Positions 3,254-55,247 of a DNA stretch of 56,710 bases are shown piece by piece (the first letter of the stretch is position 1; every line of letters begins with the position of its first letter). The stretch is from positions 1 to 56,710 of the forward strand of contig AJFK01000076.1 of NCBI GenBank assembly GCA_000467715.1, written 5' to 3'. Under the pieces are notes generated by a model. That model was not told the DNA's origin, searched no databases, and worked only from the letters and a program-made list of their open reading frames with translations. This stretch comes from Hysterium pulicare CBS 123377 (lineage: Eukaryota; Ascomycota; Dothideomycetes; Hysteriales; Hysteriaceae). Both the position numbers and the translations under genes were made by a program.

Positions 3254-3479
3254 AGGAATAGAAGATTGCGTGGAGAACTGGCGGGTTAACAATCGTGTTC
3301 ATTGCTTGTCTAGAGCATTTCCAAGCGGCTCTCACTTGTACAAATCGATCCTTCATCCTACATTTACCATTACTTGCATATTGCTGACCTGTGTGTTGCA
3401 ATTTTGAGTCCTGCTGGCCCTAAACCGGCTTCCCTCGTCGTTCTCCACCCCACTACATCACCCCCTCCTTCTCCACTTA
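3254..3479. other. 3' flank of NDUFS7-like gene
   Basis: This holds the probable 3' untranslated region and terminator of the complex I gene and the lead-in to the tandem array. I see no gene. Confidence 0.5.
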
Positions 3480-3931
3480 GAACCGGTGGTGTACTCAATG
3501 ACATAATCTAGCAGGATATAAAAGCCCTTCAAATCCCTCCAGCTTAGAACCACACCTCCAAGTCCAGTTCAAGCCAGCTTTAGGGACAACAGGTCACCAC
3601 TACTTCGAGGGTGCTTGCATGTCTAAAACATTATGTGCTACACACCTGATGCTGGGCAAGCGGCAACACATTCCCTAACGCAGACCTCTACATGGCTACT
3701 ATGTCGGGATCTACTAGAGCCCATACCACACCTTCTCGGGCGGATGGTAACAAGATATTGCTGGGGCTGTATCATGAGCGGAGGGGAAGTGCGGGAAGAG
3801 AATGGGCGGGAATCGCTGATCAGCTCTATTATGGGGGTGTTGTCATGGAAGGGAGAAGCAGAAGCAGTCGAAATACTACAGATCATGATGATGCGAAGTT
3901 GATGTTCATCATATGTATCTCTTCTGCTTAG
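3480..3931 (+). repeat. Array unit 1
   Basis: TATAAAA at 3517 and a GATGATG motif at about 3885. The ATG at 3619 opens only a 19-codon frame. A longer frame, 3692-3931 (79 residues), runs through the motif rather than ending before it, so it fits the array pattern poorly. The unit is probably decayed. Confidence 0.4.
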
Positions 3932-4130
3932 TCTTGGACGAGTCCTTAACCCCACCCCAGCCTTCTCTACTCGACCCAAGCACTCCCATTGGATATTGCC
4001 AAAGACTCGAGGCCGTTCCGGGTCTCCACATATATAGATAGTGGAGGTTGGTTTGGCATGATTGTGCTTGCCATTCCTCCGTGTTAAGAAAGGAAAAAGC
4101 GCATAGAATCAAGGTTTATATGTTGAGTCC

Positions 4131-4580
4131 CCTGGCCTCGCTGCCCAGCGATCTAACGTTCTTATCAGAATGAGCTTGTCTCCACGTGAGGGGTAGTTAG
4201 GCGCTGATGTAAGTCGAGGTCTTCTCGCCGTCTATATAAGCCTCGTCGAGACTAGAGAACTTTTTCCCCTTCCACACATCACTCTCTTCCTAGTGGCAGT
4301 ACCAAAATACGACACTTTGAATATGCCATGGCCACCAAAAGCACTTTTGCATTAAGACACAATATGTGGCTTTGGGAGGAGTGAGACTCGGGGAAGGAAG
4401 ATGATCTGAAAACTGCCACCAGAGTATTCCATGTTGGGAGTGGCTGTCCAGTCTTGAAGGGGATCCAATATGGGGATTCTGAGGTGCTATGGTGCTGAGG
4501 AAAACCAAAGAAGAATCAAATGGTGGAAGAGATGATGAAGAACGGCATCTCCAGAGGTATTGCTGATCATCATCAACAAA
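4131..4580 (+). pseudogene. Array unit 2, broken small ORF
   Basis: TATATAA at 4233, an ATG at 4323 (TATA +90) and the motif TGATCATCATCA at 4564. The frame starts Met-Pro-Trp but meets a stop after ten codons and more stops later in the same frame. It looks like a decayed member of the array. An element with CACGTGAG lies about 50 bp upstream of the TATA; a CACGTGAG also occurs upstream of unit 5. Confidence 0.4.
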
Positions 4581-4679
4581 ACGGACGTTTGATTGTTCAA
4601 AGCTACAGATCAACTATTCATGCTACGAGACAATGCCCTTAAGACTGGGTCTAGGTAATCGACAACAGCCACACATTCC

Positions 4680-5120
4680 TTCCTTCCTGCTTTCCACACG
4701 TGCAGCAATAGCCAAAAGCTGACATAATCGGCATTCTCTCCATGTATATAAACGAGGTTCCCTCCAACTTTGGGAGTTCTCACTACCAGCTACCATCGTT
4801 ACATTCATAACGAAAATTAGGCAGATCTGATGGTTTGGTGCCTCTGTCAATTGCGAAGTCAACTTCAATCGATGCCGTCTGCGGAGAAGCTGACTCCTAA
4901 TAAATACCGAAAACGAAAGCTTACATGTTGTTTAAACACTCCTCACAACCCTGCAATATGTTTGGATTCTGCTTGGAGCTCAAATCCTGGCAAAGAATCA
5001 AAATAATTTGGAAGGAGATTGCGTTGGGATGTGCAAAGTGGAAGTGACGCATCAAGACTATACGTATTGGAACGTTTTCCCTAGTATCAAATTTTGATGA
5101 TGGGCTTCATCGCCATTCCT
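4680..5120 (+). repeat. Array unit 3 with 58-residue ORF
   Basis: TATATAA at 4745. An ORF from 4830 (TATA +85) to a stop at 5004-5006 encodes 58 residues starting MVWCLCQL, basic and Cys-rich in the middle (KYRKRKLTCC). The motif TTGATGATGG lies at about 5094. The ORF has no signal peptide or domain that I recognise. Its start resembles unit 4, where both open ATG GTT TGG. Confidence 0.4.
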
Positions 5121-5214
5121 AGACACTCTACTAGAATTTAAACTTCTCTTCTAATTGTTCCAACTCCCCACATACGTTTGGCGCACATATTGTTTTAGTC
5201 TTATCGATCTTCAC

Positions 5215-5700
5215 TGCAGGATGTCGGAACAGAGGAGGCTTGGGAAACGCGGCAAGTACCCCTCTCCTACTCCCTTTTTCTCGGATGCTCACGTTCATCG
5301 GTGCTCGAGAGCTCATGTAACTTGAAGTCTGCTCAAAATCTATTTAAACAGCCTCAACTCCCGATTTGTTCCACTACACTTCAAGGTCGCTTCAGAGTCT
5401 CTACCTTCAAAGAGGATTCAGGTGACATAATGGTTTGGCTGCTTGCCAGAATTCCCGTCGAACCTCAACCATGTGTCTGGAAGAGAGTGAAAGCCAGGAT
5501 TGAAACGATTCATCGAAATTCCTCATGGAGCGTGAGCGGTGGTGCTGGTCGGGCTGGAATTGAGCTTCGCTGCATAGTGAACGGGCTGAGAAGGCCGAAA
5601 AAGTTGAAAGGGGTATGAGTATCCTCACTATAGACGCGGTAATTCTGCTAGAGATTATTGTAGAACAGAAGTATGGTGATTACCATCATCAGAAACCCCA
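5215..5700 (+). repeat. Array unit 4 with 62-residue ORF
   Basis: TATTTAAA at 5341. An ORF from 5430 (TATA +89) to 5618 encodes 62 residues starting MVWLLARIPVEP and ending in a basic RRPKKLK stretch. The motif TGGTGATTACCATCATC (5674-5690) is an imperfect inverted repeat. I recognise no family. Confidence 0.4.
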
Positions 5701-5984
5701 AATACCCCGTCTCGCTGACAAGTTTCTATCCCCTTTCCCAGACGAGGACGGCATGGTACTTGCTGGCGTGCTGATATAAGGATTGAGAGCACTCCAACTC
5801 TCCGCCATCAGCTTGAAGATGGCTTCTAGTTAATCCCATCTGATGCCAACCAAAATACTTTCGATTCCACTTTCGCTGCCCAAGAGCACACTACAAGCCC
5901 ATACTCAGGAGGTTGTAGTTATTTGGTCAAGTCACTTCACCAGCAGGACGTTGGTGCATTTGTGAGGAAGAAGTAGAGGGAGAG

Positions 5985-6490
5985 TCCGAGATTTATATAT
6001 CTTCCTAGCAGGAGGGTTTGCGAAAGACTGGCTCACGTGAGATGACCGCCTCTAGGACCTACTCTACGGTATGAGCTTACATAACGCTCTCTAGTCTCTC
6101 CTCCACTCGGGTATATAAACCTCGCCGAACTCTCGAAGTTCTTTCTTTCTTCACAACCACCATGCTTGATTGTGGACAAAATCGGAATCCGAGCACATCA
6201 TGAAGTGGGTGCTGGTTCAGCTGCCAAAAATCATGTCAACCAGCCAAAATGGGGAAAAGGCTTGACGAACTAACAACCTGCTACAAGCATGTTCCCACCG
6301 GCGGAGACCAGAAGAGGAACAGAATAGTCCATATGCTGAAGATTTAGGGCTAGTCAAACGTGCACTGGAAGAGATTGACGAAAAGGGGGTGTACGAAAGT
6401 AAACAGGGTCTGTCACGTTTCAGCCTCACTGCCAATAGTCTCCAGCATTAGAGAATGATGATAATTGGTATCACCACCGTAAGTCTCTCT
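5985..6490 (+). pseudogene. Array unit 5, ORF with one internal TGA
   Basis: TTTATATAT at 5991 and TATATAAA at 6113. The ATG at 6200 (TATA +87) starts MKWVLVQLPK. The frame reaches a TGA at 6263-6265 (codon 22), then stays open to a TAG at 6449-6451, 84 codons in all. The second half is charged and looks protein-like (YAEDLGLVKRALEEIDEKG). The motif at 6456-6476 is TGATGATA, five bases, TATCACCA, followed by a GTAAGT donor-like sequence. One mutation would separate this from an 83-residue ORF, or the TGA is avoided in a way I cannot see. Confidence 0.4.
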
Positions 6491-6599
6491 CTCTTGTCTC
6501 GCTTGAAGAACTCCAATTTTGGATCCCGACGCTCGCTCTCTTGCTCTATAAGTCGTCTAGGTAGCTAATTTCAATATGTTGAAAATAATTTATTCTTTG

Positions 6600-7085
6600 T
6601 AGCTCGAGAAAAAATCGACCAGCAAGCAAGGGAAAGTTGGGTGTAAAGTGATCGCCTTGAACACTTCGGGCAGGGCAGATTATGTAACGCTACCAAATTC
6701 TCTCCGCCTGCTCAGGTTTATAAACATCTCCAGACTCCGTGACTTCCCTTTCTCTACCCTACCATCATCGCAATAGCTTTATATATTCTGAAGCCACAGC
6801 TACATGGATTGGAGTGCCGGCGGAGCATCCAAACTATCAAGTTCTTGCATGAAGTCGTACCATGGCTGTAATCTGCTAAAAAGAAAGAAGGCACAGGAAC
6901 TCATGCTGGCGGAAGTTAAACACAGCAGCAGGCATCGGTATGGCAGTTTGGGAAGGGGATTCGACGACGTGGACGATTCGGAGTGTACGGAGGTTAAAAT
7001 AAATGAAGATGAAAAGTAGCATTACCACTGGCACCAATACCTGATACTGAAGAACGATGCTGGTGATCGCCATTAGTTCCATTAC
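6600..7085 (+). repeat. Array unit 6 with 71-residue ORF
   Basis: TTATAAA at 6718 and a TATGTAACG element at 6681. An ORF from 6804 (TATA +86) to 7019 encodes 71 residues: Met-Asp-Trp start, a basic middle (LLKRKKAQ) and an acidic end (DDVDDSE, NEDEK). The near-palindrome TGGTGATCGCCA is at 7061. I recognise no domain. Confidence 0.4.
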
Positions 7086-7344
7086 GCCTACTACTTCTCC
7101 CACTATTCTTGCGACCCCTGCTCACCCACAACTCCCCCATGGGCAGTTGATCCTGGATTGTATTGATCCTGCCTTCGTCGTTGTAGTCATTCCAGTCCGG
7201 ATGATCACAAGTCTTCAATGGCTCGGCGTTAGGTTCATGTCTTTAGCCCCGGTACGCGCTGGAAGGCATTATGAGGCCGGATGCTCTTGTTTTGTAGAAT
7301 CCAGTCCATCAAGTAAAGGGAAAAAGAGAGAATGGAGAGTGAGG

Positions 7345-7805
7345 AGAGGTTTATATATCCTTGCCCTGCGAGAACCATGGCAGGTAGAATGACTAAGGGA
7401 TTACTAGATTTGACCGCTTCCAGGACTGCTGTCGTATTACACAAGCAATGGCTAGAGCCTCGCTTCTCTAGATATCTATAAAAATCTCCTCAAACACGCT
7501 GCAACCTCCACCACATCATATCCTCCTCACTGGAGCCTCCAAAATCGATACAAAGAAATGTAATGATGCTGGTGTTGGAAACCCTTCCGAAACCTTCTCC
7601 TTTTGACGTAACATGTGGTCGGGGAGCTTCGGAGAACAAACTTTCATACTACAACCTCCTGGTTCCACTTATCGGTAGTAATGGGGCGGTGAGAGATGGT
7701 CCTTTGGAGATTGAGAGAAAGTCCTACAAGATAGGGACACGGAAATAATGTCGTGACTGCAAGCTTTGAGAATGATAGTGAACGACTGCATCATCGTTCA
7801 ATGTT
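7345..7805 (+). repeat. Array unit 7 with 61-residue ORF
   Basis: GTTTATATATCC at 7349 and TATAAAA at 7477. An ORF from 7563 (TATA +86) to 7748 encodes 61 residues starting MMLVLETLPKPSPF. The motif region at 7768-7799 has GAACGA and TCGTTC as inverted arms. I recognise no domain. Confidence 0.4.
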
Positions 7806-8154
7806 GAGCGCAGTTGAAAGGAATATATTTTGGCAATTAAATAAGAGGATTATCATCACCGTTTCCTTTGTATCCCAGTGTTTCCTCAGATTCCCTACTC
7901 TTCGTCCCAGTCTCGTCTCTCCGCAACACCGGCCATTATACTTCTTGGAATCTGCGCTTTTGATCCCAAGAGCACTCATTGTACCCAACTCCAGCTAGGC
8001 AGAGCGCTTCATTATTGAAAATACCAGCTTTTATTGCTGTTCAGAAACATCAAGAAGACGACCTGATGATTAGAGTTTTGAGCGTAGTGGAATTTGAAAC
8101 AGTGATTGAGAGCTCTGTCAATGAAGTGATGAGAGAAGAGGATATATGGCCTAG

Positions 8155-8600
8155 ATAGGTTTATATATCTTTCGAATCCAAGAAGTCCAAGGAGAATGAC
8201 TAAGAATTCACGAGGATTGGACCATTCCCAGTGCTCTCTGTATATTGCGAACGAAGATTCGTCAACACGGAGGCTTATATTTTATTTCTTGGCCTCTGTA
8301 TCTATAAAACCTTCATGTTATTCTTCATCCTTCATCTTTGAATATATCATCTCCTTATGCATCCCGCTTCCAAAAGAAGCAATGGAACCTGGACGATGGT
8401 GGGAAAGAGGGGAGTATGCTATCACATTTAGTTATAGACAGCCTTCCTCAGGCCAAGGTGGAGCAAACTCATATAACATGCTCTTCTTGTCGATTCGACA
8501 ACACTGGGGTGCTAATGTTTGGTCGCTCGAGACGATGATATAGAACTGTATCGTAATCTTAAGGTTTAACGATCATAGTGAAGAGCAGCGTTATCGTCTA
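8155..8600 (+). repeat. Array unit 8 with 53-residue ORF
   Basis: GTTTATATATCT at 8159 and TATAAAA at 8303. An ORF from 8382 (TATA +79) to 8543 encodes 53 residues starting MEPGRWWERGEY. Inverted arms ACGAT (8569) and ATCGT (8593) mark the downstream motif. I recognise no domain. Confidence 0.4.
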
Positions 8601-8904
8601 CTACTGAAACCGACGGATTGGAGGATGACGATAACTTTGAGCCACTTACTATTTCCACAAGGAAATGAACCATTGACATACAGCTTTACTACGAGGTTTG
8701 GCAAATAACAGGTTCCGTTACTAGAAGCTCCTTGTTGTTGATCGTTTTGCAACGGTCTGAAAACGCCACGCAGGATCTGATTGGTGTTTCGCTCGGGGCG
8801 CGCGCTCGATCCGATTACTTGATGCAATTATGACCAAGCGAGAATCCAGGAATTGGACCCTGTTCATACCTCCTCGTACGTCATATCGCTTGAATAAGGC
8901 TGCA

Positions 8905-8910
8905 TATAAA
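8905..8910 (+). promoter_or_regulatory. TATA box of the Gly/Asn-rich gene
   Basis: TATAAA lies 111 bp upstream of the ATG at 9016. It is followed by a CA-rich leader (CTTCAAAGCAACTTACC, CAACAAACATC) typical of strongly expressed fungal genes. Confidence 0.6.
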
Positions 8911-9015
8911 CCCCTCGTTTCTCCACATCCAGAACCAATATTCGACTCAGCACTTCAAAGCAACTTACCAAAGTTCTTTTCTACTTCCAACAAACATCTC
9001 CATAACTTAACCGCA

Positions 9016-9421
9016 ATGGGTCTCTTCAATGACGCCGAAAGGCTTGAGGGTGACGTCTCGGGAAACAATCAACAAGGAGGGGGCAATGATCAGGGTTTCT
9101 CCGACAACAATAACAACAGCGGCGGCGGCGGCGGAGGCTTCGGTGGAAACGACAATCAGCAAGGCGGCAACTTTGGAGGAAATACAAATGAAAGAGAGAC
9201 CCAGAACTCTTCTGGAGGAGGCGGCGGTTTCGGACAGACTGCTGAGGATGGAATCGTGAACCAAGGTTTGTCTTCGCGTGCTATGTCAACTATGCAGAAC
9301 CATCCAACTAATGCACTCGCGTGACATAGAAATCGATCAGTTCGCTACGAAGGAGGGAATTCCCAATGTCGCTGACGGCGAGATAAACAAGATTGTAGAC
9401 GGTGAGATTAACAAGTTCTGA
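9016..9421 (+). CDS. Small Gly/Asn-rich protein of unknown function (array unit 9)
   Basis: Two exons (9016-9265, 9330-9421) around a 64-bp GT-AG intron encode 113 residues. The start is MGLFNDAERLEGDVSG. The middle is low complexity, rich in Gly, Asn and Gln (QQGGG, NNNNSGGGGGG, FGGN repeats). The splice restores a coherent end, EIDQFATKEGIPNVADGEIN followed by KIVDGEINKF, which holds two copies of a DGEINK phrase. There is no signal peptide or membrane segment, so a soluble and perhaps disordered protein is likely. Most of the ATG-proximal sequence differs from units 1-8, but the exon 1 end (GAGGATGGAATCGTGAACC, TATA +338) sits where the other units carry their downstream motif. I do not recognise the family. 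Confidence 0.75.
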
Positions 9422-10462
9422 GCGCCTATGGGGGCCGAGATTGGCTGCTCAATATTGCGATCGGCAGAAGGATTGCGATACATCCGAATAATGAGGACAT
9501 GATGGAAGGCTTCTTTATAATGTATTATGAATGAACCAGCGCTTTCCACCCAATATTGCCGATGAAGTGAATAGAAGTGATGGCCAAGCTCTTGGCCAAG
9601 TAACCTTACAAGCTGGGCATTCTTGGCTCCTTGGGTTTTCCGGGTGTTTGGGCCCTCAACACTAGCGGGCTCGCAACACTCACAAGTATCCATCCAGAAC
9701 ACTTCCTATGAAAGGCCCGAAGTTATTATACGTTCTCATCGCAGATCAGTCGCAAAGACATGCTGCTGTTCACGTACGTTCTTGAAACCACAATCAGACT
9801 TCATTGCCTCTGTCTACAAGTAATCTACGCCTGTGGAGCGTGCATCTAATCTCCAGCTCTATCCTTCACACTCTCTATGCTTGATCCTCTAAGTTGGGAG
9901 ACCCAAGACCTCGTAAGGATGACGTAACCAGAACAATGAACGGCCCTTTAAGGCAGGGTAAGTTTCCTCGGCTACTTTCAGTGTTGTCATAACGTTCTAC
10001 AACCTTCTCAACGTCTCAGTGGAACCACGTGCGAAGTACATTCCTTGATGCCGCAGACAGTGGTAACAAGCGCGCACCAGAGTGTAGCCATGCCTTCAAA
10101 TAGCCAGCTAATTGCTCTTTTGGGCGGGAAACCTTCAGTCGAACTCGCAGGAACCTCAAGGGTCTTCCAGACTCCGGCAAGCACCAATGCTCACGCATGT
10201 TGCGTACCGTTACCACGCATCAAATCGATAGTCTTCGTCGTGTTTTCCGTTACATGCTCATCTTTCATGATGCCACTGCGGCCGTGACGCCGTGAAATGG
10301 ACCAGAAAAGTTCCAGAGACAGCAATGGCAAATATCTTCCAAGTTTCCCAAAGCATCCAAGACATTACTATCGCGACGAGCAATTAGCTCCAGCTAACTA
10401 TGAACCGGGGTGCGGGTATATGTCCTGCTACGAATAAAGACACCCGCCGCGTTGCTAGTAAT
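9422..10462. other. Convergent intergenic region
   Basis: This lies between the Gly-rich gene (+) and the end of the CorA-like gene (-). It should hold two terminators. The open frames here are short and compositionally unremarkable, and I see no gene. Confidence 0.5.
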
Positions 10463-43151: not shown

Positions 43152-43229
43152 GGCCGGCGCGCAGGAATCGAACCTGGGTCTCCTTGTCGTAATCAACAAT
43201 AAGGTATTCTACCACTAGACTACACCGAC
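43152..43229 (-). tRNA. tRNA-like gene or tRNA pseudogene, anticodon uncertain
   Basis: On the minus strand a polymerase III A box (TAGTCTAGTGGTAG) and B box (GGTTCGATTCC) are spaced as in a tRNA. The ends GTCGGTG and CGCCGGC can pair over 7 bp with two G-T pairs. However, the T stem has a mismatch or an extra base, and the anticodon arm is 23 nt instead of 17. That fits a short intron with loop TTGTTGA (GTT, Asn) but leaves an A-C mismatch in the stem. It is either an unusual intron-bearing tRNA or a decaying copy. Confidence 0.6.
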
Positions 43230-53786: not shown

Positions 53787-54451
53787 TTTCGGCCTTTAGT
53801 TTCTTGGGGCCGGGGAAGTTGAGCCATACATGGTTGGTTGGTTGGGTCGGGATATACAAAGCGTCAAAGTCAAATGGTGGGTGTTGTGAAGGAGGTATGT
53901 AGTGAGTAATGATGTGTCGGCACGGGGGAAGGTCTCTGCACACGGATGGACTCGCGCACACCGTTATTCGATATCGAGGCGGGGGTCTGGTCTGGGCTGC
54001 GGCTTTCGGGCGGTGGGCTTCTGTGTACTGTGTCGGTATATACAGTAGGTACAGAGATAGCAACCAGTCGAAGGCCCGGGGGAACGAAGTCGTGTGTTTA
54101 CCGGGTCGTGCTTTATGCACATCTAGGTAGTAGGCTGCGTCATGGTAGGTACGCAGGCAAACGCACTACTGTAGGCACGAAATACAGCACGTGCATAGGG
54201 ACGAAAGCTGTAAATGTTTGCCGTCTTGGGAACAAGCACATGGAACCTCGCCGCAAATGTACATAAACACAAAGTTTAAAGTTCCGCGGCCTTCCAGCTG
54301 GCTGGATGCTCCGCTCGGTAGCCTCTCGCGGCATCCTAACGGTCGTCCGATGCCCTGCCTGCCTACCTAGGCAGCGGTGTGCTTGTGCTTTGCAGTCGGG
54401 CGTGGTGGCGACTACTTGCAGCGTGGCGGATGCATGGAGGCTTCCCCGGCA

Positions 54452-54486
54452 CACATACATACATACATACATACATACATACATAC
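54452..54486 (+). repeat. ACAT tetranucleotide microsatellite
   Basis: About eight to nine perfect ACAT units in a row between genes. Length is likely to vary among strains. Confidence 0.85.
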
Positions 54487-55247
54487 GCAGGGCAAGCCGA
54501 CGATCCCTTGACCTGGGGTTGGGGTTGGGTGGCAAATGCAACACAGGGGCATGATGGGAATATTTTTTTTTAAAGTTCTCGGTGCCTGGATTTTGAGTTT
54601 GAGCGTGGCTGATCTGGGCTTGTGTGTGTATGTGCAACAGGCAATAAACTCCGGGCTTCGCCGCTTGCAGCACACGCGGTAGAGCACGCGGTTGCGGGGG
54701 TTCGTGGGCGAGGCTGGATGCTTGCAGCGACTGCTGTACTCTGGGAGAAGGTGCCTTGTGCGAAGTGGTTAGGTAAGGGGAAGACTCCTACTGGTTGACG
54801 GGCCTTTTATGGGGAAAAGGAACACGCGGAGGGGATCATCGGTGGTTGATCGTTTGGTGAAGTGAGTTTTTGGGTTTGGTTGAGGGTGTGATTAGTGATC
54901 GGGCAGAGTGTCGGGACGGGGAGAGTGCGGGTGGTTCCTTTTGGTGGTGATGGGCATTTGACTTGCAGATGAGCTTTGGACATGCAATTCATGGGCTTGC
55001 TTTTGTGTGATGGTGATCCTGCGAAGCCTTTCGTGTGCGGGGTACGTCACTTCGCTGCACGTGGTTTGGTATTTTCGCGGCGTGGAAAGCATCTGTGCGT
55101 CTTGTTGGGCCGAGTCGCGTGTTGGCGCTCTCTTCAACATCAACACCGCACGCGAACATCGTCAATTGCAACCCTTTGCAGAAGTATATCGCTTTTTGGA
55201 TGATTGGTGAAAGAACTGTAGCACATCAGTATAATTGATCTATCGAA

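Follow-up and report, generated by a model that had tools for sequence, protein, structure and literature searches.

A tandem array of short units occupies positions 3,480–9,421 of the Hysterium pulicare CBS 123377 DNA analysed here (56,710 nucleotides of contig AJFK01000076.1, 'the window'; contig 63 in an assembly of 37.2 Mb and 596 contigs). With a probability of about 0.5, we read this locus as an array belonging to a dispersed family of transcription units that are short, oriented by strand, non-coding and putatively of RNA polymerase II (Pol II) type. The units have a common layout, running from a TATA box to a near-palindromic motif termed P, and this layout recurs across the genome. 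Their bodies lack a coding signal and are asymmetric in strand composition, and neighbouring units are paralogous. All genome scans concern this one genome.

The TATA boxes of the window form a partly bidirectional array

A preliminary description of the window had listed nine TATA boxes on one strand, 510–830 bp apart. Plus-strand TATA boxes indeed lie at 3517, 4233, 4745, 5342, 6112, 6719, 7477, 8303 and 8905, with successive spacings of 716, 512, 597, 770, 607, 758, 826 and 602 bp (range 512–826 bp). The first eight head units 1–8. The ninth belongs to a real protein gene, with a period-3 signal of 5.8 as opposed to 0.1–1.6 in the listed open reading frames (ORFs) of the eight units. Comparison with shuffled sequence bears the array out: TATAWA occurs 15 times per strand in 3300–9600, whereas 300 dinucleotide shuffles give expectations of 2.4 and 2.2 and never reach 15. 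Elsewhere in the window the word occurs 1.25 (plus) and 2.12 (minus) times per 6.3 kb, which makes the array 7 to 12 times denser.

Minus-strand TATA boxes at 4120, 5999, 7357 and 8167 add about four promoters that had been overlooked. They form divergent pairs with plus-strand boxes (4120/4233, 5999/6112, 7357/7477 and 8167/8303), separated by 112–136 nt. Local alignment of the upstream stretches, scored against shuffles, gave a z of 10.4 for 7477/8302, with most pairs near zero; the minus-strand pair 7357/8167 (z 8.3) is the same DNA read from the other side. Further pairs scored 5.0 (7357/5999 on the minus strand, and 4031/8302), 4.7 (6111/6718) and 4.4 (6111/7477), and units 5–8 can be aligned across −130 to +115. 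Together, the divergent TATA boxes and the similarity of some upstream pairs indicate that the array is real, diverged and partly bidirectional.

A near-palindrome, P, lies downstream of the TATA boxes

For comparison with the window, 24 stretches of the genome were fetched, 12 chosen by a TATA pattern and 12 by P, along with 20 random loci. The TATA-chosen stretches were hand-picked for leader type among matches to TATAWAAN{60,90}ATGNNNTGG; their TATA and ATG content is thus selected, since they were picked by eye from the pattern list.

The recurring downstream motif is an 18-nt near-palindrome, TGATGATGATCATCATCA (P), which is often common to two convergent units. TGATGA was found at +250 to +600 behind 46 of 86 TATA boxes with pyrimidine-rich leaders (window included), against 6.3 expected. 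Expectation maximisation behind the same 86 TATA boxes yielded aTGaTGAtgatCatCAtc with a fraction of 0.96 and a log-likelihood of 338, compared with 60 in shuffled sequence; P arose de novo behind TATA boxes of loci selected without reference to it. A held-out matrix, built from random starts on the 72 TATA boxes of the 12 TATA-chosen loci with the window excluded, also converged on TGATGATGATCATCATCA. This matrix passes the 95% level of the random loci behind 10 of 11 window TATA boxes, the remaining one scoring 8.8 at a cut of 9.4. A recurring downstream motif, as stated in the preliminary description, is present far above chance.

In the whole genome, ATGATGATNATCATCA with at most one mismatch has 65 matches and its control none (both strands and overlapping registers counted), and TGATGANNNTCAYCA with at most one mismatch has 505 + 499 matches against 105 + 111 for the control. 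These 65 and 1004 matches are not unit counts, because near-palindromes count on both strands and some lie in protein-coding ORFs (fetched stretches L040 and L041).

The layout recurs across the genome

At least two such units are present in 16 of the 24 fetched stretches. Those chosen by P comprise clear arrays in L035–L039, one unit in L044 and none in the other six. Series in L033, L035, L036, L038 and L039 run head to tail, with TATA boxes 419–570 bp apart and P ahead of the next TATA box. In L022 the order is P, minus TATA, plus TATA, P, alternating, which implies that convergent units have one P in common. The core claim of the preliminary description, that signals are preserved in a fixed frame while the contents between them differ strongly, is right and extends beyond the window.

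We assembled a set of 89 units (TATA score above 9.5 and P score of 10 or more, with a single unit counted for each P on each strand), which omits window units 3 and 4, whose TATA boxes fall under the cut, and takes in a doubtful minus-strand TATA box at 6785. The TATA-to-P distance in this set has quartiles of 291 and 361 and a 5–95% range of 250–410. TATA–P pairs at +200 to +399 number 14 in the window (14 TATA, 10 P), 54 in the 12 TATA-chosen loci (72 TATA, 52 P) and 20 in the 12 P-chosen loci (37 TATA, 38 P), as opposed to 0 in the 20 random loci (63 TATA, 13 P). Two of the random loci, L008 and L009 (contigs 40 and 50, each over its first 10 kb), have 1.2–2.0 TATAWA per kb and strand and few or no P; contig 50 has matches to the TATA–P pattern further along than L009.

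Genome-wide, a TATAWAW + P pattern gave 18 matches against 1 in the control at a gap of 290–320, 18 (17 distinct) against 2 at 321–351, and 6 against 0 at 130–160. The two adjoining spacings (290–351) together give 36 matches, 35 of them distinct, against 3 controls. The 290–320 pattern recovers 4 of the 64 units in the window and TATA-chosen loci and 1 of the 25 P-chosen units. From the 17 excess matches and the 4/64 capture we estimate that the genome holds some 270 units; the binomial range extends from roughly 100 up to 1000. The pattern TATAWAAN{60,90}ATGNNNTGG showed no excess genome-wide (79 matches, 78 controls), although some of its matches had a pyrimidine-rich leader in common or were clustered.

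Upstream of the TATA box, the E-box CACGTG was found at 24 of 86 TATA boxes against 1.4 expected, and in 24 of the 89 units against a background of 0.017 per 130 nt. Other words above background at −130 to 0 of the TATA box are GCTTAC/GTAAGC (17 of 89), TTACTAA/TTAGTAA (9), TGACTAA/TTAGTCA (7) and GACATAA/TTATGTC (5), which are perhaps alternative activator sites.

Unit bodies are strand-asymmetric and fold no better than shuffled sequence

The sense strand of the bodies is rich in G, with a G skew of +0.214 in 59 plus-strand units and +0.145 in 30 minus-strand units; nine exon stretches of the window gave −0.076. Of 86 bodies, 76 have more G than C on the sense strand, and this holds for both contig strands. 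The preliminary description had offered short structured RNAs as one reading. Its non-coding part agrees with our results, but its structural part does not: the bodies fold no better than dinucleotide shuffles (mean z −0.31 sense and −0.25 antisense, in 50 of the 89 units), and no Rfam family reached its gathering score in 3300–9000 or in nine array loci. Sub-threshold, Rfam gave three matches in 3300–9000 at E up to 1, and no tRNA was found across the nine array loci.

Bodies that are neither coding nor structured would also suit an element that acts as DNA. Under this explanation the arrays would be regulatory or boundary DNA, in which clustered promoter-like protein sites are combined with a palindromic P for a dimeric protein (an insulator, an origin or a roadblock), and any RNA would be a by-product. 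The sharing of P by convergent units fits such an element, as does the near-symmetry of P even at sites with a TATA box on one side only. Nevertheless, leaders rich in pyrimidines and an excess of G on the sense strand point to oriented transcription, and deviations from P hint at RNA: G-U outnumbers A-C by 50 to 28 in one-strand sites, with 8 and 5 in 16 convergent sites. We consider a purely DNA-level element unlikely, though worth keeping in view. The excess of G-U over A-C deviations is also why we retain an RNA hairpin as a possible form of P despite unconvincing covariation. As counts alone, taken without a guide or stem test, CTGA (the D box of box C/D snoRNAs) was tallied by 20-nt bin in 57 one-strand units: the bin at P has 10, the bins to either side 1–9. 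TTTT, the T-run of a Pol III terminator, occurs 0–10 times per 20-nt bin around P and favours no single position; internal Pol III promoter boxes were not searched.

Neighbouring units are diverged tandem duplicates

BLASTN among the 89 units returned 21 rows, two of them artefacts (two TATA boxes of one stretch; overlapping neighbour windows). Fifteen of the 19 genuine rows link units of one locus, the main ones at 61–73% identity over 88–558 nt. The other four cross loci and cover 47–71 nt round the TATA box and leader (identity up to 77%). Neighbouring units are thus diverged tandem duplicates. Within the sensitivity of the tool, the DNA of the window array matches only itself and nothing else in the genome. 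Near-identical genome copies, as looked for in a test for transposable elements, were not found, the best genuine neighbours being those at 61–73%.

This divergence could instead mark the units as relics: a gene or mobile element would have been amplified into a family long ago, and the family would since have died, with its promoter and end signals still to decay. The similar identity of body and leader in close pairs would agree with relics. However, neutral decay should not spare TATA, leader and P where bodies no longer align. Nor do the bodies show the dinucleotide shift of repeat-induced point mutation (TpA/ApT 0.59, compared with 0.72 in random loci), and the lack of other genomic DNA that matches the window array likewise speaks against a dead family. 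Relics are accordingly improbable in our view.

The start features of the window units do not extend to the family

Fast-evolving small proteins had been another suggestion of the preliminary description, and the window itself seems to invite it. Units 2–8 have an ATG at +79 to +90 from the TATA box, and Trp is the third codon in units 2–6 (ATGs at 4323, 4830, 5430, 6200 and 6804), so that M-x-W occurs in five successive units. From the ATGs of units 2–8 the ORFs measure 10, 58, 62, 21, 71, 61 and 53 codons; in unit 7 the first ATG, at +81, runs straight into a stop and the 61-codon ORF starts at 7563. ORFs of 53–83 codons ending before a recurring motif had been claimed for units 4–8. The motif is present far above chance, but unit 5, with 21 codons, lies outside that range.

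These features are not shared by the family. The ATG at +75 to +105 is not enriched in the 25 P-chosen units (3.23 against 3.29 per 100 nt), whereas the window gives 3.81 against 2.54 and the loci chosen by an ATG pattern 4.08 against 2.83. ATG-N3-TGG, the third-codon Trp, occurs 4 times in 36 units not selected for it (window included), equal to the counts at spacings of 8 and 12. We rejected ATG and M-x-W as a family element, strong as it is in ATGNNNTGG-chosen loci, because it is absent from P-chosen loci.

Nor do the bodies resemble coding DNA. The run from the first ATG in 87 units averages 24.5 codons in its own frame compared with 21.0 and 33.7 in the other frames, that is, without ORF excess. 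If no more than one intron is allowed, the start frame joins the frame of P in 9 of 89 units; shifted frames do so in 7 and 13. The period-3 signal is 1.08 in 68 bodies, 1.02 in shuffled sequence and 1.03 in 42 intergenic pieces, whereas 77 exon pieces reach 2.20, and the codon score of the bodies (−0.031) lies not only under that of exons (0.097) but under that of intergenic DNA (0.022). When ten pairs of paralogous units are aligned under permissive gap settings, gap lengths are 1, 2 and 0 modulo 3 in 234, 144 and 87 cases. Donor-like words have no fixed position in the units, and branch-like words are barely commoner near P. Pfam gave no match for the nine unit ORFs tested (four and five).

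A small-protein family, possibly with introns, would make P a C-terminal acidic-histidine motif. P does read D-[DE]-x-x-[HYQ]-[HYQ], and stops are few in one-strand sites. Its left arm, though, is nearly devoid of C where wobble positions would fall, and in profile is largely a mirror image of the right arm, the left being the stronger. The peptide reading of P (D-D-x-H-H) was dropped after frame listings, intron models and coding tests. With no period-3, no frame maintenance, a sub-intergenic codon score and no Pfam match, small proteins are unsupported at the family level, and we regard them as distinctly improbable despite the starts of the window units.

Decay of the last gene, the third early suggestion, is barely credible: that gene has a TATA box and pyrimidine-rich leader and is next in line, yet z does not exceed 3.9 when the units are compared with the promoter, leader or start of that gene, and such units are present at many further loci, several fetched arrays adjoining other long ORFs.

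Features of the individual units and their surroundings

The array is flanked by a 20 kDa complex I subunit gene (ORF end 3253) and the glycine-rich protein gene (9016–9421). Unit 1 (3517–3913, plus) extends from the TATA box at 3517 to P at 3890–3913, which it has in common with the minus unit of TATA 4120 and which has the weakest P score of the set (12.5). That minus unit (3890–4125) reads left from 4120, divergent from 4233, and its TATA box and leader are weaker than those of the other minus units. Unit 2 (4233–4579, plus) has an E-box CACGTG at 4183, its TATA box at 4233, an ATG at 4323 (10 codons) and P at 4556–4579, with a second P-like site at 4529–4552. Unit 3 (4745–5114, plus) is similarly equipped, with an E-box at 4697, a TATA box at 4745, an ATG at 4830 (58 codons) and P at 5091–5114. 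In unit 4 (5342–5695, plus) a degenerate TATA box, TATTTAAAC, at 5342 is followed by an ATG at 5430 (62 codons) and by P at 5672–5695, common to this unit and the minus unit of TATA 5999. The latter (5672–6005) reads left from 5999 and is divergent from 6112, with an E-box at 6034 in between.

Unit 5 (6112–6475, plus) comprises a TATA box at 6112, an ATG at 6200 (21 codons) and P at 6452–6475. Unit 6 (6719–7076, plus; TATA 6719, ATG 6804, 71 codons) has two P-like sites, at 7000–7023 and 7053–7076. The second of these is the P of a minus unit (7053–7362) that reads left from TATA 7357, divergent from 7477, and whose promoter and leader make up the inverted repeat 6109–6149/7320–7360. Unit 7 (7477–7795, plus; TATA 7477, ATG 7563, 61 codons) ends with P at 7772–7795, in common with the minus unit of TATA 8167 (7772–8172), which reads left and is divergent from 8303. 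Unit 8 (8303–8595, plus) has its TATA box at 8303, an ATG at 8382 (53 codons) and P at 8572–8595.

The glycine-rich protein gene (8905–9421, plus; TATA 8905, ATG 9016) is coding and stands outside the unit family. Its product is small and also rich in Asn and Gln, and its TATA box and pyrimidine-rich leader are of the units' general type. Pfam at E up to 1 gave no match for this protein, with a presumed intron removed by eye. The window otherwise holds long uninterrupted ORFs, with matches to Oxidored_q6, an AFG1-like ATPase, RING/zinc-ribbon and RasGEF, a content that suggests a filamentous ascomycete. A tRNA at 43152–43229 (minus; Rfam 31.9 bits, gathering score 29) is its sole gathering-level RNA match, and a perfect ACAT microsatellite of 8.5 copies lies at 54453–54486 within a listed minus-strand ORF (54140–54673).

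Discussion

In our model, each unit combines a TATA box and a pyrimidine-rich leader with a G-rich body, some 200–300 nt long and not conserved in sequence. P lies in the 3′ part of the unit, and upstream of the TATA box stands a further site, which in roughly one unit in four is the E-box CACGTG. Tandem duplication has enlarged the arrays, in which units are arranged head to tail, as divergent pairs around one short promoter region, or as convergent pairs with one common P. The units are probably transcribed, by Pol II, and P may set the 3′ end. The most economical picture is that P is a putative 3′-end or stop element that can be used from either side. Selection would preserve the start of transcription and the 3′ element but leave the body of the transcript to drift, so that the units would act via transcription itself or via short terminal signals. 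Since start and end are kept while the frame, fold and sequence of the body are not, we hypothesise that the act of transcription is the function.

Several observations weigh against this interpretation. Across the permissive alignments of the ten paralogous pairs, the mean identity of aligned columns is 0.80 both upstream and in TATA and leader, 0.77 in P and 0.75 in the body. The bodies of close pairs are therefore hardly less alike than their TATA boxes and leaders. As close pairs alone show little difference, the case for stronger constraint on the promoter rests on TATA, leader and P being kept across arrays. P by itself is not diagnostic: the 12 stretches chosen by it amount to 5 arrays, 1 single unit and 6 without any. 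Covariation between the arms of P is not convincing, one of ten pairs being above shuffles (p = 0.0115; 50 sites). P can be read as a D-D-x-H-H peptide, and three units of L038 have similar C-terminal readings. Finally, the matrices behind the unit calls, including the 89-unit set, scored the same loci on which they were trained.

The arrays are reminiscent of several known systems. In yeast, a DNA-bound protein of the Reb1 type acts as a roadblock that terminates transcription between convergent genes, and a protein site between convergent units could halt transcription here too. However, the sequence of P differs and the arrays have one site per unit; a roadblock role of P is putative. Spliced-leader, 5S and snRNA arrays likewise consist of many short units in tandem, each with its promoter. 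Whereas those are near-identical repeats with a conserved RNA, the neighbours described here are 61–73% alike at best and bodies differ between arrays. Integron cassette arrays, in which palindromic sites also separate the units, are bacterial, mostly promoterless and moved by an integrase; here every unit has a promoter.

Fungal non-coding RNAs that arise from bidirectional promoters include cryptic unstable transcripts (CUTs), stable unannotated transcripts (SUTs) and long non-coding RNAs (lncRNAs) (PMC12566771). These are, like the present units, short, intergenic and without coding signal, with divergent promoters. They differ in being single transcripts detected by RNA-seq or tiling arrays, whereas the units form duplicated arrays with a strong TATA box, a fixed layout and a recurring near-palindrome. 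By term search, 'palindrom' and 'TATA' are absent from the review PMC12566771 and 'tandem' occurs once. The portion of the open PMC literature that we searched contains no description of such arrays or of the P sequence in such use. The arrays may thus be an unrecognised class of non-coding element, as judged from open papers, Pfam and Rfam, which is not proof of absence from print.

A bolder and more doubtful proposal is that they represent a new class of eukaryotic element: hundreds of duplicated, self-contained non-coding mini transcription units, dispersed over the genome, in which only start and end are selected and the content is free. What they yield would be transcription as such, or a promoter-driven stock of random sequence for new genes. 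If the units are transcribed, they would constitute a large gene set overlooked by ORF-based annotation, with start and end conserved and content not. They would then offer a natural test bed for selection on transcription alone and for gene birth from promoter-driven random sequence. P provides a handle on a possible two-sided 3′-end element, as well as a search key for other fungi.

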